From the NCBI GenBank assembly GCA_025435555.1, contig JAIWWG010000051.1, positions 161,501 to 225,500 of the forward strand: a stretch of 64,000 nt of DNA, read 5' to 3'. The stretch is from Chytriomyces cf. hyalinus JEL632 (taxonomy: Eukaryota; Chytridiomycota; Chytridiomycetes; Chytridiales; Chytriomycetaceae). The position numbers were made by a program, and so were the translations under genes. The notes beneath the pieces were generated by a model that did not search any database, was not told the DNA's origin, and worked only from the letters and a program-made list of their open reading frames with translations. This document shows, piece after piece, positions 1 through 20,300 of this stretch. Within the stretch, counting starts at the first letter, position 1, and every line of letters starts with the position of its first letter.

Positions 1-993
1 TTATTTTTTTTTATATTTTTTTGATTTTGGCTTGAATTTATGAACCGTCGCATTGACCCACTCGACCCTCACAGACGTACCCATTCTTTGATCACCGCAA
101 CACGCTCGAAGGCGTGTTTGGTCTGGACCTTTCCTTCGCAGACATCCACGACACGCTCCAAAACTATCTCCAAACTCCAAACGCGTTCATATACGTGACT
201 TCTACTGAAGGTATCCTGGTGGGCACTTCGTCCTCAGATACCATGGTCGATGGCGAAGGAAACTTGATTCTCGCTAAGGATTCCAAGACAAGGTCCACGC
301 AAATCACGGGCCAGTACCTATGGCACGTGAATCGAACAGCACCCGGTTATTTACAAAGTTTGCACGGTCAGATGCTTGAATCTGGCGGCTTTTCTTTCCA
401 AGTACGGACAATGGACAGCGCGCCTTACTTTGTCATTGTCAATGGGGCCCCCAAAAGCGATTACACGGGGGACATTGATTTGGTTCTGTCGGATCTTGAA
501 AGTGCATTGGCAACCAATATGAAGGTTGTTGTTGGCATATCGATGGCAGTGTTTGTTGTTGCTGTTGCAACCAGTTGTGCGTTGACTTATTACTCAATCA
601 CGGTTCCGTTGTCGAAAATTACGAGCGTTTTAAGAGATGTGAGTTGCCGTGGCATGCATCTTTTTTGTGATTGTGGAAATAACTCCCCCTTGATATCGGC
701 AGGCAACGAATTTTGACTTCACGGCATATAAACGCCTCCAAAAGGAAAAGTACAATTATATTCGAGAACTTGGTACCATGGAGCACGTGTTCTACCTGAT
801 GATTGCCAAGTTTGCAGCGTCAATACGGAGCCAGGATACGCTGAAGAGCGCGAGCATAACTGCTTCTGCCAAGAAAGGCGTTGGATCGCACGCCGAGCAG
901 AGAGTGACTTCGAGATTGGAAATGTTGAATTCTATGAGAAAATAGTTATAAATAGGATATCTTTTGAGCTTGAGTTGGTAAATAAAGTGTTGC
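1..993. repeat. Inverted repeat, left arm (>=993 bp)
   Basis: This arm is the reverse complement of 10390-11382. Position 1 pairs with 11382 and 993 with 10390 with no net indel, and every stretch compared was identical. The arm runs off the left edge, so its full length is unknown. It carries the last two exons and the polyadenylation region of a double-Cache receptor gene. It ends 42 bp before the start codon of the TBC gene. Near-identity including introns means a recent duplication, gene conversion, or an assembly artefact at a contig edge. Confidence 0.92.
75..945 (+). CDS. 3' fragment of a fourth double-Cache receptor gene
   Basis: Only the last two exons are inside the window: 75-638 and 703-945 (stop TAG 943-945), separated by a 64-bp GT-AG intron; 1-74 is the end of the preceding intron. 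The exons encode the second half of a Cache sensor (GVFGLDLSFADI region), a membrane span followed by a HAMP-like Pro-Leu stretch, and an 80-residue cytosolic tail with the TMEHVFYLMIAKFAAS motif. The sequence is identical to the 3' end of the gene at 10438-14176, on the opposite strand. AATAAA at about 981-986 is a plausible polyadenylation signal. Whether the gene is complete to the left cannot be seen. Confidence 0.85.
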
Positions 994-2758: not shown

Positions 2759-5700
2759 TTATTTCTTTGCGGAATCTCTTAAGGAGATCATGTTCCTTTT
2801 CGTAAACGAGACATCTTCAGAAAGTCGCGCGGTGGTGCTTCCTCGAACATTGGCGGCAAACTTTGCAATCATTACGAAAAAGACTTGCTCCATGGTCGCA
2901 ATCTCGCGGATGAAGTTGCCGTTGCTCTTTCGCATGGACTTGTACGACGTAAAATCGAAGTGGGCGGCCTTTGGAAGGAATCAAGATAAAACCCGACGTA
3001 TCATATGACTTATAAAATGCAACCTACATCTTCAATAATCCGCGTAATGTGAGCCAATGGAATTGTCACATAAAGCCGTGCCAAAACGCAGCTGATCAGC
3101 ACTACGACCGCAAACACGGTGCTGGACACTCCGATCATTATCCGGAGGTTATTTCCAAGCTGCACATCCAAGTCCGCAAGGACTGCATCAAAGTCGCCAG
3201 TATAATCGCTCTTTGGCGCACCGTTGACGATTACGAAATGCGGCGCGTTGCTCATTGCCCGCAACTGAAACGCCAGGCCGTCGTGATCCCACATCTTCCC
3301 ACCCAGAAGCGACAAGTCAATTTTATCGCTTGGAAACTGGCTCCACAGGAACTCTGACGTGGCTCGCGTTTTTGGGTTCATGGATTGGTTCGCAAAAATC
3401 ATGTTCCCGGCAAAGTCGATCAAGCTTTCGTTGGAGGAGCTTCCCACTAACAAACCCTCTCGGGTGGTGACGTACATGAACGCATTGGGAGTTTGGAGGT
3501 ACTTTGCGAGGGTGTCGTGCATGTCTTGGAAGGAAATGTCGACACCATAAACTGCTGACAGCTGACCCAGGTGATCAAAGAATGGGTACGTCTGAATAAT
3601 TCAATGAAAACAAGCAGAGTTAAAGAAGGAACAGCCTCGAAAGGAGCGGAAAGAGGACTTGCCGCAGTGATTCCTGGTGCCGTATTCAAATTCATCAAAT
3701 CAATCAGAAACATGAACCCGCAATTAACGCTCGCAATTACCTGATACAACATCCGAAAAATTCCCCCTAGCTCCCAATGCAAACACATACGGCTCCGTAA
3801 ATTGGATCCGCGCATTCGCCGCCGTAAGGAGTGCTGCCTGCTTGAACCAAGGACGCAGCGTCGCTCGGTACGATTTATTCTGATATCGAAACTCTCCATA
3901 TGTCAAAGAAGTTTCATTCCACACTGCCGCTGAAAGGGATCCGTTATGGCGGCGAGTCCATTCCCACTCTGCATCAGTCCAGTTTTGACGCTCCCGGCGA
4001 CAGATTTCACACTGCGGATCGCGATACTCTGGGGGTAAAATGAGCATCACTCCGAATTTATCAGACTTTTGAAGAAAGACGGCGGCATCGGTGGTCGTTG
4101 CAAACAGCAAGTGGAGGGGGATGTGGGTAAACTTGATTTCATTCGCAAGGGCGTACAACACCCCGTCCATGTTTGACTGGTTACTGTATACTGTAAACAC
4201 CTTGCGCATGTCCAAGACGTGGTCGGTAATATCGTCAATTAAAGATGCTGAAGGCGGTCAGGTCAGACACACGTCCGACTGTTGAACGCCAAAAAAAACT
4301 CACTGATGGTCTCCATTGCAAGCCCAACTTGGACTTGCTGAATCTTGTCTGCGAGAATTTCCACAGCTGTGCGAGTCGCAGTTGTGCTGGCGTTGTTTGA
4401 ATATGCCATCAACGGGAAATACGTACAAAGGGGAGTCGACAGTACCGCGACTGCCTGATTCACAAAGTAGGCGGAATTAGAGTATTCGTGTGGTGCTTGA
4501 TTTAAATCAACTCAACTGTCAGCAGTGTTTGAATAAATACAACCAAAAGCAGGGACATTGTAAACTGCTTCGGCACGATCTGCTTCTTTTTCCCGAGCGT
4601 TTCTGGGCCTTCGAACAGCCTAATCTCATGATACATGAACGCATTCTGTGCTCCGCCGACGCGTTGAATATTTTGCGTTTCTTCGACAGACTCTGCAAAC
4701 GTGGATATCATGTCTGCAAACGCACTGCCCATCGCCGCTAACTCTTTAATATGCGATTTGAATGCGCTGGTTTCAGCCGAGTTGGAAAAGTCCAACTGTG
4801 TCGCCTGAGGGAAGGTGAGTTTGAACACGCACAACCCGTGATGCTACTCACCTCAACCATGATCGACGATATCCTTGCGAGCGGCCGAAGGATTAACAGA
4901 TAATTGAACAAGCTTGAAAACAAAACAACAGCCACAAATGCAGCTAGCGACATGCCAATCATTTTTGGCGTATTTTCCCTTTCCAGTTGTTTCAATTCAG
5001 CGTACACGGTGTTGATTTGTTCCGAGTAATCGCTTTTCGGTGCCCCATTCACGATCACGAAATGCGGGTCTTGTCCCAGTGCCCGCAGTTGGAAAGTAAA
5101 GTCCCCTTGGTCCCACCGTCTTCCATCGAGTGCTGTAAAGTTCTTTTCAGCCGAATCCGAGAGTGGCCACAACACTTGCGCAGTTCTCCTCGTCGTATCA
5201 GCTGACGAATCAATCGCAAGAATTAGGTTTCCATCATTGCCGGTAAGCGTTTCGTGCAGCGAGGACCCGACAAGCTGGCCCGACGGTGTCATGAGGTACA
5301 TGAACGAGTTGTTTGTTGTCAAGAATCCCGCGAGCGTGCTGCTCATGTCTGCGAATGAAATGTCGCTTCCGTAGACGCCTGCAAGAGTTTTCGTGTCGTC
5401 GAAAAACGGCATGTTCTGAGTGGAGAGTTGTGAGTGATTTTGAAACATGCAAAAATGGTGCACATGTACTCAACCACAGAAATCCCTGCGCTCGCACAAT
5501 GAAAAGAAATGAAAAAGAATCACCTCGAGAACGCAATGCTTTAAAGAAAGAATCGCACCTGCAATCCTTGCCGCGCTTGCGCCTCCATACAGGTACGGGT
5601 GGGTATACTGAAGATGCACATCATTCAAGTTGAGGCTGGCGGCTTGTTTATACCACGGCCGTTGCGTGCAGTGATAAGTGGAATTGCTAGATTCAAAGTT

Positions 5701-6444
5701 ACTGTAGCTCATTGATTCTTCGTCCCAGTCTGCGAACGCAGAGAACCCGCCTCTGGACAGCCCCCATCCCCGCTCCTCCGCTGTAAAATTCTGAGTGTAC
5801 AACTGGCACATCTTGCAATCATTGTCTGTGTAGTTTGACGGCATCCAAGTCCAAATTGCCCGAGATCCGTTTTGTTGAATCTGAATAAACGCGTCGCGGC
5901 TGGTTCCATAAAACATGGGCAGCTTGTAACCCGTGTATTTCTCATCGTTGGCCATAACGCGTAAAACTGATTCCAAGTTTTTCAAATTGGTTTCGAGTGA
6001 GATGGCTTTGCGCATGTGCATCGTCTTTTTGTTGATTCTGCGGATGAACGATCCTGGGAGAACCCATCAGCTTTTCTTGACATTAAAATCAGTTCGAATC
6101 GTGAATTACCAATGTTTTCAACTGCTAAAGATGCTTCGGCGCTTTGTATTTTCACCGCCAAGCTTTCCGCGACTCGCTTCCCAGTCGATGTGCTCAGCGC
6201 ACTTGACGATGACATTGTTGAGATGGCGATAAACAGAGGGATGATCAGAACAACCGTAGCCTAATGTGGGTAAGTTATTGGCGAGCAGACGTTCAATCTC
6301 TCGCGGCCTAACTACCACAATCAGAGTCTGCAAGAACACAATGATCAGAAGCGGAATCGAGCATGCCCTGCGTTTCAGTTTCGGACCCGTAGTGACGCTC
6401 GTTCTTGAGCTCGTTTGAGACGATAGCGGGTCAGAGTCATTCAT
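2759..6444 (-). CDS. Tandem double-Cache four-span receptor, copy 3
   Basis: Eleven exons (descending): 6444-6316, 6260-6110, 6053-5559, 5485-5475, 5415-4852, 4804-4517, 4454-4304, 4247-3741, 3673-3663, 3591-3028, 2968-2759. They sum to 3081 nt, 1026 aa. Architecture: short cytosolic N-terminus, membrane span, extracellular Cache sensor with RPWYKQA, membrane span, about 70 cytosolic residues, then the same layout again (second sensor with RPWFKQA) and a 70-residue tail. No kinase, cyclase or methyl-accepting output domain is visible. Exons 4 and 9 are 11-nt microexons. The intron 3592-3662 starts with GCAAGT, so it is a GC-AG intron. The ATG at 6444 gives a first exon of the same 129 nt as copy 2; an in-frame ATG at 6531 is the alternative. 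Ligand unknown. Confidence 0.9.
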
Positions 6445-6588
6445 CAAAATTGTTGACAATTCTACAACATTTTTCCAGTAAACCCTCGTGTCTGCGCCAG
6501 TTGCTTTGATTGCTTTTTTTAATGTTTCCACAGCCTTAGCAACGTTAATTCCGAATGAATAAAATCGCGTTTATTGTTCTCATAGAAT

Positions 6589-9500
6589 TCACAGCCTCTC
6601 CATCCGCGATGCTCTCTTCTTTTCAGGAACAGATCCCGCCGTTTTCCTCGTCCCAATACTGTCTGCGCTTGAACTTCGCACGCCGTTGCTGCCTCGTATT
6701 GACGCTGCAAACTTGGCAATCATCATGTAGAAGACATGTTCCATGGTGCAAATCTCGCGAATGTGGTTGAACTTTTGTTTTTGTAAAGGCTTATATGCTG
6801 AAAAATCAAAGTTGCTGGCCTGCATGCGGAAGTAATGCATGTTTTTTGCGGTGTGAATTGCGCTAATTAAACGCCCAACAAAGTAACACTCACTTGGCGA
6901 AGACCCGCCGTCACTTTCGAAAGCGGCAGCACAATAAAATAATACGTCCAAGTATTGCTAGCAGCGACAGAGAGTACAAATACTGCTGCTGACACTGCAA
7001 TGACAACCTTGGTGATGAACGCTAATCCCGCGTCAAGGTCTGAGAGTACCAAATCTATATCTTTTGTGTAATCGGTTTTCAGAGCGCCGTTCACAATTAC
7101 AAAGTACGGTGCGTGACTCATGACGCGCAGCTGGAATAAATAGCCTTGATCCTCAAGCATTTGATTGCTCAGCGTGGACAAGCCGCTGTTGTTCGTAGCA
7201 AGGTTTCGATTCCACAGGTACTTCCCCGTTATTTGAATAGAAGCCGACTTCGAATCTTGCGCGCTAATAAGGTTCCCAGCAGAATCGAGCATCGTTTCAC
7301 TTGTTGATGTGCCAACTAGGATCCCTTGCCGTGTGGCCACATAAATGAACGCATTAGGAGATTGAAGAGAAGTCTTGAGGCTGTTGCGGATATCTGCGAA
7401 TGACACGTCCAGTCCAAAGACGCCGTCAAGACCGCCACTGCTATTGAAAAACGGGTACGTCTGGCGCACTTTTTTTTTAATTCACTTAACTTGGTAAAGC
7501 TTAAGCAATCAAAGAATGTACATACCGCTGTTATTCCTGAAGGTCATGAAAATGAATTCGATGACATCAGACTTGAACACGGAAAAAAGCAAAACAAAAA
7601 CAAACAAAAAACATTCAAAAACCTGTCGCAAAATCCAAGAAGTTCTCCTTCGACCCCGCCGCATACACGTATGGATCCGTAAACTGTATTCTGGCATTTG
7701 CTGCGTCAAGAAAGGCTGCTTGCGCGTACCAAGGCCGTGACTTGAGTTGAAACGTAACGTTTGTGTATTCAAAAGGGGTCAGTTCTTCCGACTTTGAATT
7801 CCAACTGGCGAACGAGAGAGAACCGTTTCTTTTTTGAATCCACTCCCACTCAGCCTTGGAGAATGAGCTTTGAGACTTGGCGCAAATGATGCAGCTCGAG
7901 TAGTTTGAGTTGAGAGGGAGAGCAACAAAGACACCATGTCCCGCCGTCTGCTGCAGCGATATAAACGCGCCATCAACATGACCGTACAAGAACCCAAGTT
8001 GCGACTTTGTGCACTGCACTTCTCTCTCGAACGCTTGAAAAACAGAGTCCAAGCTCGCCGGGTTACTGTACGCGAAAATCACTTTTCGCATCTCTAACAT
8101 TGTTTGATTTATACCGGAGATCATAGAATCTGTTCACAAATTCTTGTTTTAAGCGAGAATTGGTTTTGAATCAAACGAGACTTACGAATAGTCTCTTCCG
8201 CGAGATGTCCCTGCACGTGTTGAATCTTCAAGGCCAGGCTATCGACAATCTGCCTGCTTGAAGAAGTGCTGTACACATTCGAATGCGCCATTGCTGGAAA
8301 GAAGATGTTCAAAGGCGTTGAAATCATGATGCCACCCTGAGAATTGTGTGAGCTGCTTTTATCAATTGCGCTGCCGATACAGCACTTACAGACACTAAAG
8401 ACTGAAGGAATATCACAATCATGACTGGTATCGAAACTCGACTCTTTCTCACTATCGGAGCTGGCCGTGCATTTTCTATTTCGCAGGGTTCGGAACTTTG
8501 AAAAATGAACGCGTTTTTGGCTCCCACACGGAGAAGTCCTTGCGACTCTTTCGCCGAGTCGGCAAAATTTGCGACCATCACAAAGAACTCTGTCTCCATC
8601 TGCGAAATCTCGTATATTATCGTTCGATACTGTTGGCTCATCTTGGCCAGTGCGGTAAAGTCAAGACGCGCTGCCTGCACTTGGTTACTGCAGGCATTGA
8701 ATGAAAATAGTTTCTTATCACTCACATGAACCATGACAGATGTGATTTGCTCTAACGGACGAACAATGGCCACGTAGTTGAGCGACATGCTCATGCCAAC
8801 CACCGCCACAAAGCAGACTGCCGATATCCACACCAACATGCGCAAACAACTGTCTTCCAATTCTTTCAGCTCTTGTTTCAAGTCGTTTATCGTTGCCGCA
8901 TGGTCGCCTTTCAAAGCTCCATTCACAATAACAAAATACGGAGCCTCTTTCATTGCACGCAGTTGAAACGACATGTCATCCAGCTCCCATCGCAAACCAT
9001 CTAGCTCTGTAAAATCCTTATTTCCTCCTGAAAGCTGAAGTTTCCATAAAAACTGCGCAGTCGAACGCGTCCACCGTGATGTCGATTCATTTGCGCGGAT
9101 CAAGTTTCCGTCAGCGTCGACGAGCGTTTCGTTTGATGAAGATCCAACAAGTTGTCCGTCACGAGTCATGACGTACATAAATGCTGTTTCAGACTGCAAG
9201 AACTCGGTGAGGATTTTTTGCATGTCTACGAAAGTGATGTCGCTGCCGTAGACGCCCGTGAGAAGTCCTTCTGCGTCAAAAAATGGGATATTCTGGTGTT
9301 GGATGAAGCTTCAGCAGAAAACATTTGTGAAGCGGGACGGATAATATGTTCCTCTACCACGGTGATTCCTGTTTACAGTCCTGTAAGTTTTGGATCCAAA
9401 AATGCATGTTACAAAACGCGTATATCTACCTGCCAAAGAAGATGCGATGCCTCCAGCAAAAATATAAGGTTCAGTATACTGAACATGAACGTTGTCTGGA

Positions 9501-10331
9501 TTCAAACTTGCGGCCTGTTTATACCAAGGCCTTTTTGTGCAATGGTAAGGTTGATCGCTAAAGGAAAAGTTGCCAGCCTTGAACGATTCCTGATTCCAGT
9601 CGGCCCATGCTGCAGACATATTCTGGCGTGCAGACCAGTTGGCGTGCGCGCGAGTCAAGCTCTCGCGAAGCTGTTGGCATATCAAACAATCTGGGTCTTG
9701 GTAGCCAGCGGGAGTTGTAATCCAGATGGCTCTTTCCGCAGCGACTTCCAGCTGAATGAACGCGTCATCCCGCCGCCCATAATACATGATGAGGTTGTAT
9801 CCGGTGTATTTGACTTCGTTTGCGAATATGCTGAGGATGGAGTCGAGATTTGACTCGTTGCCATATGCTGAAATTGCTTTGTACATGTGGACAGTCTGTT
9901 CGTTGATGATTCTCACAAAAGAGTCTGAAACAGGGACATTAAAAGGGAAAACACGCGATTTAACTCGTCAACGAAAACCTATTCGCTCGAGTGCAAGAGA
10001 AGCCTCCGCGCCATGGATCTGGACAGCGAGGCTCTGCGCCACTTCCAGACCCGACGACGTGCTGAGCTCGTTGGCTGCTTCCATGGCAGCAAAGGATATG
10101 ATCAGCGGAACAACGACAACGAATGATGCCTGAAAAGGAGATATGACGGAGGATGTGTCAGTTGGCGGTGCTTTTGGAGAAAGTGCAGGTTTGTGTATTC
10201 ACCGTGATGAACGTTTTCAGGAAAATGACTGCGAGAAGTGGAACGGTGCAGAACCGCAGCCGCGACCGTGATATGATTCCATCTCCTGAAGCGTTGAAGT
10301 CTTCTGGAGGCAGCGTTTCGGATCCCTGCAT
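6589..10331 (-). CDS. Tandem double-Cache four-span receptor, copy 2
   Basis: Eleven exons (descending): 10331-10203, 10129-9979, 9924-9430, 9368-9358, 9292-8726, 8674-8390, 8336-8186, 8129-7623, 7536-7526, 7460-6894, 6819-6589. They sum to 3105 nt, 1034 aa. The layout matches its neighbours: two extracellular double-Cache sensors (RPWYKQA and RPWYAQA), four membrane spans, a cytosolic linker and a C-terminal tail. Both cytosolic parts share an amphipathic motif with ME, FF/FY and FA positions. Span 2 is followed by VRPLEQI, which resembles the start of a HAMP helix. Exon lengths 151, 507, 285, 567 and 11 nt match copy 1 exactly at the corresponding positions. The start lies 106 bp from the stop of copy 1, so the promoter must be very compact. 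Probably a small-molecule sensor; effector unknown. Confidence 0.92.
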
Positions 10332-10389
10332 AGACTGCTGACTGCTGATTTACGCTGACAATCTTTGAGCAAATGTGTAAGTTGATGGG

Positions 10390-11382
10390 GCAACACTTTA
10401 TTTACCAACTCAAGCTCAAAAGATATCCTATTTATAACTATTTTCTCATAGAATTCAACATTTCCAATCTCGAAGTCACTCTCTGCTCGGCGTGCGATCC
10501 AACGCCTTTCTTGGCAGAAGCAGTTATGCTCGCGCTCTTCAGCGTATCCTGGCTCCGTATTGACGCTGCAAACTTGGCAATCATCAGGTAGAACACGTGC
10601 TCCATGGTACCAAGTTCTCGAATATAATTGTACTTTTCCTTTTGGAGGCGTTTATATGCCGTGAAGTCAAAATTCGTTGCCTGCCGATATCAAGGGGGAG
10701 TTATTTCCACAATCACAAAAAAGATGCATGCCACGGCAACTCACATCTCTTAAAACGCTCGTAATTTTCGACAACGGAACCGTGATTGAGTAATAAGTCA
10801 ACGCACAACTGGTTGCAACAGCAACAACAAACACTGCCATCGATATGCCAACAACAACCTTCATATTGGTTGCCAATGCACTTTCAAGATCCGACAGAAC
10901 CAAATCAATGTCCCCCGTGTAATCGCTTTTGGGGGCCCCATTGACAATGACAAAGTAAGGCGCGCTGTCCATTGTCCGTACTTGGAAAGAAAAGCCGCCA
11001 GATTCAAGCATCTGACCGTGCAAACTTTGTAAATAACCGGGTGCTGTTCGATTCACGTGCCATAGGTACTGGCCCGTGATTTGCGTGGACCTTGTCTTGG
11101 AATCCTTAGCGAGAATCAAGTTTCCTTCGCCATCGACCATGGTATCTGAGGACGAAGTGCCCACCAGGATACCTTCAGTAGAAGTCACGTATATGAACGC
11201 GTTTGGAGTTTGGAGATAGTTTTGGAGCGTGTCGTGGATGTCTGCGAAGGAAAGGTCCAGACCAAACACGCCTTCGAGCGTGTTGCGGTGATCAAAGAAT
11301 GGGTACGTCTGTGAGGGTCGAGTGGGTCAATGCGACGGTTCATAAATTCAAGCCAAAATCAAAAAAATATAAAAAAAAATAA
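10390..11382. repeat. Inverted repeat, right arm
   Basis: Reverse complement of 1-993. It covers the last two exons, the intervening introns and the 3' flank of the copy 1 receptor gene. The inner boundary is sharp: similarity stops at 10390, between the copy 1 polyadenylation region and the copy 2 start codon. Confidence 0.92.
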
Positions 11383-14176
11383 AACAATGCGTAACTGCTG
11401 TTATTCCTGAATATTATGTCAGGTACTTTGTTGGAACGCATGTAGTGTAAGCATAAATACCTGTCACCACGTTGGATATATTCCCTCTACTTCCAACAGC
11501 ATAAACATAGGGCTCTGTGAATTGCAATTTTGCAGAACTCGCATCCAGCGATGCAGCCAGCTTGTACCACGGCCTGTCCATCGCATGGTACGAGAAATTG
11601 CCAAACGTAAAATTCAAGTTCCTTCCTGACTTTATGTTCCACTGGGCAAATGATATGGAGTTGTTGCGTTTGCGAACCCACTCCCATTCTTCGTTCGAAA
11701 ACCGCGCCTGCGACTGCGTACAAATGCTGCAAGCGGGGTCATTGAAATCTCCGGGCAACGCCACAAACATGTTGTTTCCATTGCTGTTTTGGAGAAACAC
11801 AAATTCGTCCTTTCTCGTTGTATAGAGAAGCGCGAACGGTAGTCCAGTGTATTGGATTTCGTTCGCGAACGCGTTAAATATGGTGTCTATGTTTGACTGG
11901 TTGCTGTATGCGGAGATTGTCTTGCGCATGTCTGAAGTGGTTGCGTTGATGCTGGAAATGATTGACTCTGTTGTTTTTTTTATCAGAATATCAAGTTCCG
12001 TTTTCTACGTCAAGCGGCAAAGAAGTCTGGCCTCACCCATCGTTTGCACTCCAAGAAATCCTTGCACGTTTTGAATCTTTCGCGCCAACTCATCAACTAT
12101 TTGCCTGCTAGTCGTGGTACTGTAGTGATTCGAATATGTCGCGTATTGAAAGAAAATGGCCAGTGGCGTCGAGATGACTAAACTTGCCTGAAAACAGTTT
12201 CAGTTTTTTACAAGTCAAAATGAATAAAACTCACGCAAAGAAGAGTTTGAAGCAGCGCAAGAAACGCAATGGACAATAGCCACCATTTCTTACGGCCTTC
12301 CCTCAACAGAGGAACCTTGACGGCATCGGACAATTCGGAGCTTTGATAAATGAATGCGTTTTTGGCACCGACACGTAACAAGCCTTGTGACTCTTGCACC
12401 GAGTTTGCAAAATTGACAACCATGATAAAAAACTCTTTTTCCATCTCTGTAAGCTCTTTGATGAATGTTCGAAAGGATTGGCCCAATTTCGCGGAGGCTG
12501 TGAAGTCGAGTCGCGCAGCCTGAATGCGACGGTTCGTTTCTCTCGCATCTGAAACAAACCAAAAACAAAGCTTACATGAACCATCACAGAAGTAATTTGC
12601 CGTAGCGGACGCACCACCGTCAAATAATTGAACAAAATTCCCAAACTGACAACAACAGCGAAACTAATTGCCGATGCCTCCATCAACACATACAAGCATT
12701 TTCTCTCAATCGCAGTTAATTCGCTTCTTAAAGTGCTGAGTGTGGCTGAGTAATCTTCCTTCAACGCGCCATTCACAATCACAAAATACGGCGGTTCAAG
12801 CAATGCCCGCACTTGAAACGACACATCATCCAACTCTGCCTGGAATCCGTCCAACAATGTGAAATTCTTTACATCAGCTTCAGGCTCAAGCGTCCATAAA
12901 AACTGTGCCGTGGAACGCGTCCATTTGGACATTGATTGGTTTGCATGGATCAAGTTGCCGTCATCTCCGACAAAGCTCTCGCTTGAAGAAGAGCCAACTA
13001 GTACCCCCGTTCTTGTCATGACGTACATGAACGAGTTGTTGGATTGCAGAAAGTCTGTCAAAATGTCGTGCATGTGGTTGAACGAAATGTCGCTGCCGTA
13101 CACCCCAGTTACAACGCCATTTGAATCAAAGAATGGAATATTCTGAAGGATATAAAGAGGTGGAGTTGCTATTAGGTTGGATCAAAGGATCAATCACTGC
13201 GCGGTACTCAACCACTGTGATGCCTGAGCAGAAAGAGTAGTTGTCAGTATAAACCCAAAAAGATGATCTAACGCAGAAAAACTCACCCGCAAGTGAAGAA
13301 GGTCCGTCGTCCTCATAAATATACGGCTCTGTATATTGAATCCGTACAGTTTCGGTAGTCAAACTTGCCGCCTGAATATACCACGGTCGCTGCGTGCAAT
13401 GATAAACCGAGTCTGAAAACACAAAACTCGTATCTGCCCAGCTTTTTTCATCCCATTTCGCATTTCCAGCGGCCATAGTTGTGTGGTCAGCCCAATCATT
13501 TTGTTCTTTTGTAAAATTCCGCCGAAGCGCGTTGCAAATGACACAGTCTGGATTTCTGTAGCTGGCCGGAATCGAAAGCCCAACAGCCTTTCCCTCCATT
13601 TGAATGAACGCGTCGTCCTGCCGACCGTAGTACATGATCAGCGGATACCCAGTATACTCGACTTCGTTTGCAAAGGAATTAAGCAAAGAGTCGAGGTTGG
13701 ATTGGTTGCCATGGACAGAAATGGATTTGTAAACATGCGTCGTTTGCTCGTTCACGGATTTGATGAAGGACTCTTTGAAATTAAGGAAATATGAGATAGA
13801 TAGATGATAAGGAGTCAAGTACGCCCTACTTATCCGATCGAGTACGAGCGATGCCTCGGCGCTCTGAACCTGAACCGCCAAGCTTTGGGCCACCCTCCGG
13901 CCAGTAGACGTGCTTTGTTCGTTCGATGCTGCCATTGCCGAGAATGATATCATGAGTGGAATAAGGAGTACCAGAGCGGCCTGTCAAAAATCAACCCGTG
14001 TCAGAGTTAGTTCGTGATCAAACTCAGGTTCCAAAGTATCGAACCACAAATAACGTCTGAACAAAGACTACAACGAGAAGAGGAATTGCGTAGGCTCGTG
14101 GTTTTGATCGCGCGCTGACTGTGTCATGCGGGGAGCTGTGCTGCTCGTAGCTGGAAAGGGGATATACTTCCCGCAT
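10438..14176 (-). CDS. Tandem double-Cache four-span receptor, copy 1
   Basis: Eleven exons (descending): 14176-14045, 13980-13830, 13772-13287, 13223-13213, 13142-12576, 12519-12235, 12187-12037, 11967-11461, 11406-11396, 11308-10745, 10680-10438. They sum to 3108 nt, 1035 aa. Hydrophobic spans lie near residues 29-60, 413-436, 526-560 and 918-942. Between the first pair and the second pair are extracellular Cache sensors with RPWYIQA and RPWYKLA signatures; dCache-type sensors bind small ligands in bacteria and eukaryotes. Cytosolic parts are about 75 and 80 residues without a recognised output domain. The ATG at 14176 puts 28 residues before span 1, like copies 2 and 3; an upstream in-frame ATG near 14312 is possible. 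The last two exons are inside the inverted repeat. Confidence 0.92.
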
Positions 14177-14469: not shown

Positions 14470-15527
14470 ATGCATTCGACATACCCCGTCTCTGTCCTGG
14501 AGAAAAACTCGCTGGAACGCGGCGCTTGTTCAGACTCAGCCGTGAACCTCGACGTAAAAGCCGGGCTTACTGCGCAGCCTGTCGAGCTCATGTACTTTGT
14601 CGTTATTTATGCTTTTCTTTACAAGCATGCCAAAACAGTTGAAACAGAACGCGTGTGCTCGGATTCCTCGACGCAAAGAGCGCGCCCCGAGTGTCTCAAA
14701 CGTGCCGCCTACTCTTTTCGATCGCAACTCAAGACTTGCTGTGGAAGAACCTGTGCAAGCAAAGATGGGCCGATAAAATGCACGCGCCGTTGAAGTTGCA
14801 TCCGTTTGTGGACTACACACATCTGCTCGCAAAGTTGGACCGTCAGGAGAAGGTTGATATCCTGCAGCGGCGATTTGATAACGGCTTTCAACCTACCCCG
14901 CCGAGTATGGATGAAGAAGGGGACGTGGTGCTGGCGGAGCGCGTTTTTCGTTCGACGCCAGTGGGTATTGCGGATTTGACTGTGTTTCAGCCCAAACTTT
15001 GCGGAAAGTGGCAGGTGACCTTGAGTTTGTTTACTGAGAACTGAGATGCATTCTGACTGGAATCTTTCCGTTTCAGGCTTCATACATTGCCGCTGAATTA
15101 GACCAACACCGCGAGCGCATTACAATGAACGAGCTGAACGCGTATATCTGGAGCTATCAAGAAAGCTGGGGTTACTTCGGAGCTGGTGTTGATTCGGGTG
15201 GGGGTGCTTGCTTGGGTTCTTATTTTGATTTCAAATTACTTCAGCTGACTTTCCATCACAGGATATGCCCTGAGAGTCAGATTCTTTCCGAACGGCATAA
15301 GGTGACTTGTGTTTATTCCATATACCTCTTTATTTAAACAGCAGCTTCCCTGCAGAGCCAACGCCATTGAGGACGACACTCCCCGCCGTCCAAGGCCCAT
15401 GCCTTACAACTTCACCGCAACCGGCGCAATTCAAGTCGGGCAGTACCCAACCCACTCGAAGCCCAGACGCCTCGCAAACTGGGGGTGGGAGTTTTCGAAT
15501 TCATACGTGACTTATAAATCCCTTTGA
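14470..15527 (+). CDS. F-box protein, copy 1
   Basis: Five exons, 14470-14591, 14648-15014, 15077-15197, 15262-15301 and 15356-15527, sum to 822 nt, 273 aa. The F-box (QPVELI-TRVLGFLD ... ATQDLLWKNLC) is rebuilt exactly across the first intron, which supports the model. F-box proteins recruit substrates to SCF ubiquitin ligases through Skp1. The remaining 190 residues contain no WD40 or leucine-rich repeats. They are conserved with the next gene, including CGKWQASYIAAE, IQVG and NWGWEFSN. The end of exon 3 has alternative GT donors nearby. Target unknown. Confidence 0.85.
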
Positions 15528-17088: not shown

Positions 17089-17364
17089 TGATAGGGAATT
17101 GACCAAGAGCTGCGGCGTGGCTACGTGATCAATTAAGGAGTTTGGATTGAGTTGGAGAGTGCTAAGAACAGAGAGAAGATTGAGAGGAGACTGCTCTTTA
17201 TTGAGGTGATATTGCACGCTTTAAATAGCGTTACAGAATAAAGAGGAAGTAAATGATTGGTGATGGGGCATTGTGGAGGGTGTGTCATTGTGTTCGGTCA
17301 AGAAAAAGGGTGTCCATTGTTCTCAATTAGAGACGCGTGACGTAATCCGACAGATTACGTAACA
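17089..17364 (-). repeat. Element 1 3' LTR
   Basis: 276 bp, beginning TGATAGGG and ending GTAACA on the plus strand. Nearly identical to 22274-22549. Confidence 0.93.
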
Positions 17365-20300
17365 CCCGCCTCCAAGAGCGTACGTGATGAAAAAGGGAGC
17401 GAGCTCGGCTGTGGCTTGTCTTGCTGGATGCGACGAAGGAGCTCTGGTGTGGAATTTAACCAACAGTTGTACACAGGGTGATGGTCTTTCCATTGTACGA
17501 GGACTTGTTGGTGGCCGTCTAAGACGCGTTGTGATAGTACTTTGTCAATAGTACGGATGGCAATTGGCTGGCTTTCAAGAGGGTGTTTGGTGGTGTCGAA
17601 GTAATATGGCTTGAGTTTCTCAGGATGGAAAACTGGGTGGACTCCCCAGTCTGAAGGTAAGGCTAGTCTGCAGGAAGGAGCAGCTCCAACTAGTTCAATG
17701 ATCTTGTAAGGTCCGGAATATTGTTCAGAGAGCTTATTTGTCTGGCGGTAACGGAGATTGGGAGGCTTGAATTCTTTGGCAGAAATGAGGACGAGGTCTC
17801 CAACTTGGAATGGCGAGCAAAGACGTTTACGATTGGCAATGGCTGCGTACTTGTCTTGTGAGTCACGAATGCGATCTTTGACAACTTGATATTCGGCGCG
17901 AACATCTTTGATGGACAGAGGAGCAGAGAAGGGCATGTTAATGTTGATCATGGAGCGAGGATGGCGACCATACTCGAGGTAGAAAGGTGTGTAGCCAGTG
18001 CTAGAGTTGATGGTGTCGTTGATACCAAATTCAATCTTTGGCAGATGTTCGTCCCAGTCGTCTTGGTAAGGGGCGACAAAATGTCGGAGGGCTTGGAGGA
18101 CCCAGTCGTTCTTTTGTTCAGTTTGGCCGTCAGTTTGTGGATGCGAGGAGGTAGAGATGGTGAGCTTTATCTTGAGGGAGTTGCAGAGTTCTTGCCAGAA
18201 GTTGGAGGTGAACTTGACGTCGCGGTCAGAGATGAAGTGGACTGGAATGCCATGGTGAGGGAAGATGTGTAACTCAAACAGGTTGGCAATGTCGCGTGCA
18301 GTAGAGGTGGTGTGGCATGGAATGAGTCTTGTGCGTTTAGTTCCAGAGTCGACGACTACCATAAGAGAATCGTATCCAGACTTGGTGAGTGGGAGCTTGG
18401 TCATGAAGTCCATTGAGCAGGTGTGCCATGGATAAGGTGGGACATCGTGAGGCTGGAGGAGTCCGTATGGAGCGTGACGAGCTACCTTGAGGCGTTGGCA
18501 GTTGTCACAGTTTTGGCAAAGGCGCTGGACGTCGCTGTGAAGCTTGGGCCAGTGGAAGTAGCGAGTGAGTCGTTCTGAGGTACGTTCCCAGTTGTTGTGG
18601 ATGGCTGGACCGTAAGAGTGAGCTTTTTCAAGAAGTGAGTGACGGAGAGGGGCTGGGACGTAGAGACGGGCGTGAGTCTTGTCAACGTAGTGGAGGAGTC
18701 CATCTCGTAGGCGGTAACGTGCTATCTGAGAGACTAAGTGCTTGGGAGCTTTGGATGGGTCGTTATCGAATGTGTCTGGATTCAGTGGATCAACAAGGTA
18801 TTGTGCAATTTCTAGGAACTGAGGGTCGGTAGTGTTCATGTCCTTGATGTCGGCCGTGAGGTCATCAGTGATTGTCAAGGAGGTTGTATTGAGGAGAAGG
18901 TATGATTCTGGTACTTGGAGGATGGTGTGGACAGAGTTCTTGTAGGTGTTGACTTGAACGGATGCATCTGTAGCGAAGCGGCGCCTTGACAGTGCGTCAG
19001 CAATGGTATTCCACTCCCCCGGTGTCCACTGAATCTGGAAATCGTTGGCAAGAAGGTCAGCGAGCCAACGGTGATGGACAGGGCGGAGCTTGGGTTGCGT
19101 GAGGATGTGGCGGAGGGACTGGTGGTCTGTGAAGGCGAGGACGTTGTTTCCGACGAGGTACTGACGGTAGTATCTGAGACATTCGACGAGGGCGAGGATT
19201 TCACCCATGTAGGGATGATAACGAGTTTCTTCTGGCTTGAGTTTGCGGGAGTAGTAGGCGATGGGCTGATCGATGCCATTGGAGTCAGGCTGAGCAATGT
19301 ATCCCCCAACAGCGCGGGCGGACCAGTCAGTGTACAGGTGGACAGGAAGTTCTGGATTGAAGATGGCGAGCATGGCTGGGGATGAGAGGAGGGTCTTGAT
19401 TTCGCGGAAGTGATGACGTGCTGTGTCATTCCATTTGTCGGTAAAGGAGGTAGTCTTGTGGTCTCGTAGGAGGTCAGAGAGAGGCGCGACAAGTGAGGCG
19501 TGACCTTTGATGAAGCGATGGACAGTATTGGCAAGGCCGAGGAAGGAGCGGAGTTCTGAGAAAGAGGTAGGTTCCTCAAAATCTCTGATGGACTGAGTTC
19601 TGGAAGGAAGGACAGAGACTGATCCTCTATTGATTTGATAACCGAGATATTCGAGTTGTGTCTGGAAGAAGGAACACTTGGAGAGGCGTAGGTGGAGTTT
19701 GTGGTTTTGGAGTCACTGGAGTACCATGTCGACATGGCGGAGATGGTCTTGTTCATTGTCAGAGAAGATGAGGATGTCGTCGATGTAGACTATGACAAAG
19801 ACGTCAATGAAGTCTTGGAAGATTGTGCTGAGTGTGGTCTGGAAAACACCTGGAGCGTTGGCGAGGCCAAAGGGCATAACAACCCATTCGTAGTGGCCGT
19901 ATTTAGTGCGGAAGGCAGTTTTGGGGATGTCAGATTCTACAATCCTGATTTGATGGAAACCGGACTTGCAGTCGGCTTTGGTAAAGAATTTGGCCTTGGA
20001 GAGGCGGTCGAGGGATTCTAGGATGTTGGGAAGGGCGGCGCGGTTCTTGACGGTCAGTCTGTTGATGGCGCGGTAGTCGAATACAAGGCGGAGTTTGTCT
20101 TTCTGTTTGACAAAGAAGACAGGAGCGCCAAAGGGCGAGGTGGAAGGTCTGATGCGGTGATGCTTGAGGAGGTAGGTAAGTTCTTCTTGAAGGGCCTTCA
20201 GTTCTGGAGCGCTCATGGGATAGATGGGTCGGTAGGGAGGTTCAGCGCTTGCTGTTGGATCGAGGTCAATTTTCATGTCAGTAGGTCGGGACGGAGGAAG

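Follow-up and report, generated by a model that had tools for sequence, protein, structure and literature searches.

Three tandem chytrid genes join two dCache_1 sensor units in one four-span chain: gene anatomy, origin by fusion and a proposed receptor role

Gene structure

We analysed a 64,000-nucleotide (nt) stretch of the Chytriomyces cf. hyalinus JEL632 genome (hereafter the window), which is part of contig C190 in a 37.8-Mb assembly, and within it three adjacent genes, g1, g2 and g3, each of which encodes two dCache_1 sensor units in a single chain. The genes lie in tandem on the minus strand within 2759-14176 (Table 1). Splicing guided by homology gave 10 introns per gene, and reproduced exactly the outer coordinates and the products of 1026, 1034 and 1035 amino acids (aa) that a preliminary description of this DNA had proposed. 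Introns were GT-AG in 29 of 30 cases and GC-AG in one, and their positions match among the three genes and between both halves within each gene. The GC-AG intron occupies 3662-3592 in g1, and the corresponding intron is GT-AG in g2 and g3. An 11-nt exon is conserved in all six units (13223-13213, 11406-11396, 9368-9358, 7536-7526, 5485-5475 and 3673-3663). Over 755 residues (g1 263-1017), the source-annotated protein P0016 and g1 are identical, and this match spans the junction between the halves.

Table 1. Twin-sensor genes of the window and their parts (TM, transmembrane span).
Feature	Position	Strand	Remarks
g1, twin-sensor gene	2759..6444	minus	11 exons, 1026 aa, one GC-AG intron; homology-guided splice model
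g1 first sensor unit	4852..6260	minus	RPWY at 5661
g1 junction exon	4517..4804	minus	
g1 second sensor unit	3028..4454	minus	RPWF at 3855
g1 last exon, HAMP-like tail	2759..2968	minus	
g2, twin-sensor gene	6589..10331	minus	11 exons, 1034 aa; homology-guided splice model
g2 first sensor unit	8726..10129	minus	RPWY at 9532
g2 junction exon	8390..8674	minus	
g2 second sensor unit	6894..8336	minus	RPWY at 7737
g2 last exon, HAMP-like tail	6589..6819	minus	
g3, twin-sensor gene	10438..14176	minus	11 exons, 1035 aa; homology-guided splice model; relatives P0001, P0002
g3 first sensor unit	12576..13980	minus	exons 2-5, inside TM1 through TM2; RPWY at 13389
g3 junction exon	12235..12519	minus	unit 1 tail fused to unit 2 start; TM3 begins
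g3 second sensor unit	10745..12187	minus	exons 7-10, inside TM3 through TM4; RPWY at 11575
g3 last exon, HAMP-like tail	10438..10680	minus	
g3' 3' part, fourth twin-sensor gene	1..993	plus	inverted copy of 10390-11382, 100% identical; mostly upstream of window

Sensor domains and predicted ligand

Pfam profiles for dCache_1 and MCP-like_PDC_1 matched two stretches of each chain. PF22673 was above its cut-off in all three chains and PF02743 in two (g2 and g3), with g1 below it (39.5 bits v 45). The RPW[YF]xxA motif occurs twice in each of g1, g2 and g3, in agreement with the two Cache sensors per chain first described. Its core was found 2-3 times per real chain, whereas chains with shuffled residues held it 0.024 times on average. 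Identity between N-halves and C-halves is 32-37% in every pairing. The units show the double PAS-like fold on a long helix that marks the dCache_1 superfamily, and g1-g3 are dCache_1 proteins.

The Cache fold was also recovered in AlphaFold models of a twin relative, P0002 (mean predicted local distance difference test score, pLDDT, 64), and a single-unit relative, P0025 (pLDDT 68). Their best structural matches were the dCache domains of amino-acid chemoreceptors, closely followed by amine, uracil and histidine-kinase sensors; judging from these models, the ligand cannot be read from the fold alone. The Methods section of PMC11237719 gives an amino-acid motif, [YFWL]....[RK].W[WYF] ... [YF] ... 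D, which is present in all six sensors of g1-g3. Among relatives, the motif scan detected no sensor in P0037, a short model, and overlooked the second one in P0005, which is also short, and in P0004 and P0007, whose models are without an exon at that place. The sole sequence match to a solved structure was a weak one to PctA (expectation value, E, 0.037), in which the motif columns align. Amino acids are probably the ligands of the six sensors, as we infer from sequence. The closest known sensors are those of the dCache_1AA amino-acid chemoreceptors (the PctA, Mlp24, Tlp3 and CtaA sensor domains). Unlike these chemoreceptors, g1-g3 have two units, four spans and no MCP signalling, kinase or cyclase domain. 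All six sensors have a CxxC pair in their outer module (at 171 and 674 in g3, and at 173 and 676 in both g2 and g1); its two Cys are invariant in the six-unit alignment and possibly form a disulphide.

Membrane spans and cytosolic segments

Hydropathy confirmed four spans per chain, with one span in g1 and in g2 coming out as two adjoining windows. The middle loop and C-terminal tail measured about 88-99 residues each with 19-residue windows, which corrects the 70-80 residues first given for the cytosolic parts. Pfam listed no output domain (MCP signalling, kinase or cyclase) in g1-g3 up to E 10, or in eight relatives at E ≤ 1, as expected of a chain that had been described as carrying none. 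Because an output domain is absent, g1-g3 are not chemotaxis proteins, kinases or cyclases.

Eleven aligned cytosolic segments have a common pattern resembling the second helix of HAMP, judged against what we take to be the HAMP pattern and seven E. coli HAMP sequences. In a profile comparison with those seven, the segments scored 19.4, and the best of 60 column shuffles reached 14.2. They appear HAMP-like in pattern; a HAMP identity is not established by this likeness. Far from being bare tails, the cytosolic parts are conserved segments under purifying selection (see below) with a HAMP-like pattern. Pfam searches of the tails for a hidden output domain gave only the weak HAMP match and a DUF3862 match in one of 11 segments (E 0.002), and a profile search against solved structures returned complement factor B alone (E 1.8-2), which we took as chance. 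The source name of one relative, P0039, begins 'HAMP domain-containing'; Pfam finds no HAMP in it at E ≤ 1.

One chain or two

No stop codon was found in the three junction exons, in keeping with both halves belonging to one chain, as first described; g1 and g2 have an in-frame Met just before TM3. On the gene strand, AATAAA occurs at, or no more than 36 nt from, all three gene ends and is absent from all three junction exons, although this is weak evidence, with five occurrences in the stretch v about 3.9 expected by chance; an ATTAAA variant lies inside the g1 junction exon (4750). Both halves stand in one chain in P0001, P0002 and P0008-P0014, some of which are without an exon.

The Met and the ATTAAA are what one might expect if each locus made two separate single-sensor proteins and the fusion were an artefact of gene modelling. 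The source annotation also divides the g3'/g3 locus at the junction into two genes, P0024 and P0031, the second of which tracks g3 from 594 to 955 and then enters intron 10, and contains further half-length models (P0006, P0028 and P0032). However, P0024 tracks g3 to residue 544 and ends at the junction after leaving the g3 frame. The junction exons are free of stops and under constraint (ratio of non-synonymous to synonymous substitution rates, dN/dS, 0.17-0.22), P0016 runs unbroken through the g1 junction, the models just listed hold both halves, and the trees of N- and C-halves are congruent (see below). We therefore consider such an artefact very unlikely.

Alternatively, read-through from one twin gene to the next might yield proteins with four sensors and eight spans. 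A g2-like and a g1-like gene are merged in each of two source models, P0038 (2029 aa, C. hyalinus) and P0039 (2050 aa, C. confervae), and the intergenic spacers among g1-g3 are just 106 and 144 nt. Yet in-frame stops terminate g1, g2 and g3, those of g3 and g2 also being present in their copies on contig C13; P0004 stops at g2, as does the partial P0007; and joining requires an intron that removes the stop. Four-sensor products are thus scarcely credible.

The family in the genome and in relatives

Exon-block tblastn over the window and 12 further stretches of the genome found 11 loci with all eight large twin-gene blocks in order: g1, g2, g3, an inverted g3' and one more on C190, five on C13 and one on C33. 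Since the groups on the three contigs may represent haplotypes or segmental duplicates, the figure of 11 should not be taken as the number of independent genes. Four more places gave incomplete or interrupted block matches (C190:138.6-141.5k, C13:494-498.7k, C33:30.4-32.9k and C33:52-61k). Reading frames were checked in g1-g3 and, exon by exon, in their three counterparts on C13, which showed no internal stop. A single unit is carried by five loci, according to block matches. Two of these, read in all three frames of the strand, have the same tail of about 70 residues followed by a stop, and no output domain was seen in them by eye; the remaining three were judged by block matches and annotated relatives. 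Further family fragments lie at C24 and C190:142.7k.

The whole of g3' (C190:158.8-162.5k) is an inverted copy of g3 (171.9-175.6k). All 100-base-pair bins starting from 158900 to 162300 are 100% identical, and identity ends abruptly beyond them; the first exon of g3' is only 75% identical to that of g3 in protein. This identity may reflect a recent inverted duplication, gene conversion or an assembly error. A block on C13 has the same layout, with diverged arms.

Three protein searches, each scoring about 8000 candidates, gave overlapping lists of 18, 24 and 24 relatives, all from Chytriomyces, Siphonaria or Rhizoclosmatium (three genera of Chytriomycetaceae). Among the matches listed, the relatives from Siphonaria and Rhizoclosmatium are single-unit and twin chains occur in Chytriomyces only, so that the architecture looked for in other chytrids is shared within that genus and not by the matches from the other two. 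Source-annotated relatives of 1007-1040 aa from C. hyalinus and C. confervae are P0001, P0002 and P0008-P0010, of which P0001 (88%) and P0002 (86%) are full-length relatives of g3. None of the 18, 24 and 24 matches carries an output domain among its listed Pfam domains. HMA in P0003/P0004 and ArgJ in P0034 appear to come from adjacent genes that the annotation merged.

Origin by fusion and selection

Single-sensor relatives in the three genera have one unit and about 500-530 aa. P0021, P0025, P0029, P0030 and P0033 have the same sensor and tail as the twins, and the single loci of this genome have the same exon blocks as the twin genes. By tblastn the single-unit gene comprises five large exon blocks (N1, N2, N3, C5 and T), and would have six exons counting the 11-nt exon. 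The twin gene has 11, the last exon of copy one being continuous with the first exon of copy two, with no intron between them.

In a tree of 40 units, the 13 N-halves formed one clade (support 98). A second clade of 13 units (support 93) held the C-halves of C. hyalinus, C. confervae and JEL632 together with P0028, which is annotated as single and looks like a split gene model. Five lineages have the same branching order in the N and C clades (weakest node 67). Therefore, a single fusion preceded the copying of the fused gene: the main twin lineage had a single origin, followed by amplification. Deep nodes among the single-unit groups have support of 38-49, and the root is not settled. P0003, P0016, P0017, P0018, P0023 and P0024 were dropped from the tree as incomplete or merged, models such as P0005-P0007, P0031 and P0032 were outside the tree list, and entry required the RPW[YF] core, which the second half of P0004, for one, lacks. 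The chain P0015 of Chytriomyces sp. MP71 does not fit the single-origin tree (support 47); the two tail types seem to stand in reversed order in its halves, and it may be an independent fusion.

The genes g1-g3 are under purifying selection. Compared with their C13 copies, dN/dS was 0.15 overall (3052 codons, 11-nt exons left out), 0.11-0.16 in the units, in the range already given for the junction exons, and 0.09-0.13 in the tails. The short first exon evolves faster in g2 (0.59) and g3 (0.56). The sole stop counted in the comparison is the natural stop of g3, common to both copies. The incomplete or interrupted places on C190, C13 and C33 could be taken to mean that these are decaying receptors with a lost output domain, or ligand-binding decoys, but this is highly improbable given the overall constraint, the 11 loci with a full block set, and the absence of any output-domain relative among the search matches. 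A scan of genome contigs for a prokaryotic donor, with a reach of close relatives only, confirmed none of 53 pattern matches; plasmids, at the same reach, gave no matches.

Comparison with other Cache proteins

In animals, each chain of alpha2-delta or CACHD1 has two dCache domains and acts on partner membrane proteins (PMC9901441, PMC7615972). The preliminary statement that dCache usually occurs once per chain needs this qualifier. Two dCache domains in one eukaryotic chain are what g1-g3 share with these proteins. However, alpha2-delta and CACHD1 possess a VWA domain and are held by a single membrane anchor, whereas the sensors of g1-g3 are each flanked by their own two spans. Pfam found no VWA domain in 11 chains (g1-g3 and eight relatives), and g1-g3 are therefore not alpha2-delta. 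A looser parallel would be an auxiliary subunit, an amino-acid-binding twin chain that tunes an adjacent channel or transporter with no cytosolic cascade. Besides the animal precedent, alpha2-delta-1 was among the weaker Foldseek matches (E 0.012), and neither g1-g3 nor the eight relatives have an output domain. Set against the missing VWA, and against four spans and selected cytosolic segments that an external-only subunit would not need, we regard this as unlikely, though deserving of attention.

A 2016 survey limits Cache in plants and fungi to histidine kinases (PMC4822843). Those kinases are also Cache sensors in fungi, but g1-g3 are without a kinase domain. A literature search in which subscription papers were thinly covered returned no recognisable description of the twin architecture, consistent with its having been called undescribed. 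A different Cache architecture occurs in the same genome at 4730-7571 of stretch L047 (C1:762.7-765.6k), where TPR and VWA-like frames come after a Cache-type region, the VWA match being weak and below cut-off.

Proposed function

We propose that a single-sensor gene (TM-dCache_1AA-TM-HAMP-like tail) became duplicated in tandem and the two copies fused, giving a chytrid family of surface amino-acid receptors. Outside the cell, one chain would present two amino-acid pockets that have diverged; in the membrane it would have four helices, which is the helix count of a bacterial chemoreceptor dimer, and may work like the sensor pair of an amino-acid chemoreceptor. The twin chain would be a covalent pseudo-dimer, in which the helices move when one outer pocket or both hold ligand, and the two cytosolic HAMP-like segments relay this movement to a separate partner protein. 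We place the probability of such a fused-receptor family, acting as a covalent pseudo-dimer through a separate partner, at roughly 0.55. It builds on the gene structure, two dCache units, motif and fusion anatomy established here; from there we infer amino-acid binding, pairing of the halves and partner-mediated signalling. The preliminary description had offered either two ligands or a built-in dimer signalling through partners. Descent of the fused chain from a gene with one sensor and two spans now makes the dimer the best reading, and the halves would then pair with each other.

Several results weigh against this proposal. No output domain or partner was found; no cytosolic segment exceeded the PF00672 cut-off (one of 11 matches at E 0.019), and an exon-by-exon search of the genome gave no PF00672 match at E ≤ 1. 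The HAMP profile comparison had a probability of 16-33%, and in the P0002 model, with its low mean pLDDT, the cytosolic parts fall below 50. To these are added the two-gene annotation of g3'/g3 and the misfit of P0015. Exon by exon, the genome gave at least 55 guanylate-cyclase and at least 10 HATPase_c matches, with none on the twin-locus contigs C13, C190 and C33; the genome's guanylate cyclases and HATPase_c proteins are thus at most possible partners of the twin chains.

A more specific version of the pseudo-dimer is tentative, at slightly less than an even chance: the twin chain would be an obligate covalent heterodimeric receptor whose four-helix bundle reports two ligands or concentrations to a separate effector. 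If so, it would represent fungus-made chemoreception from a sensor best known in bacteria, and flagellated fungi would gain candidate amino-acid receptors beyond the histidine kinases to which PMC4822843 confines fungal Cache. It would also be a natural covalent receptor dimer whose halves can be mutated separately, making signal sharing between Cache receptor subunits testable within one polypeptide. The sensors are small domains that E. coli could express in the laboratory.

Neighbouring genes

Between g3' and g1 lies a RabGAP-TBC gene on the plus strand (about 1034-2701). An F-box-like frame, also on the plus strand, adjoins g3 (14643-15044), and a piece of a retrotransposon polyprotein with RNase H and integrase domains occupies 17355-19712 on the minus strand.

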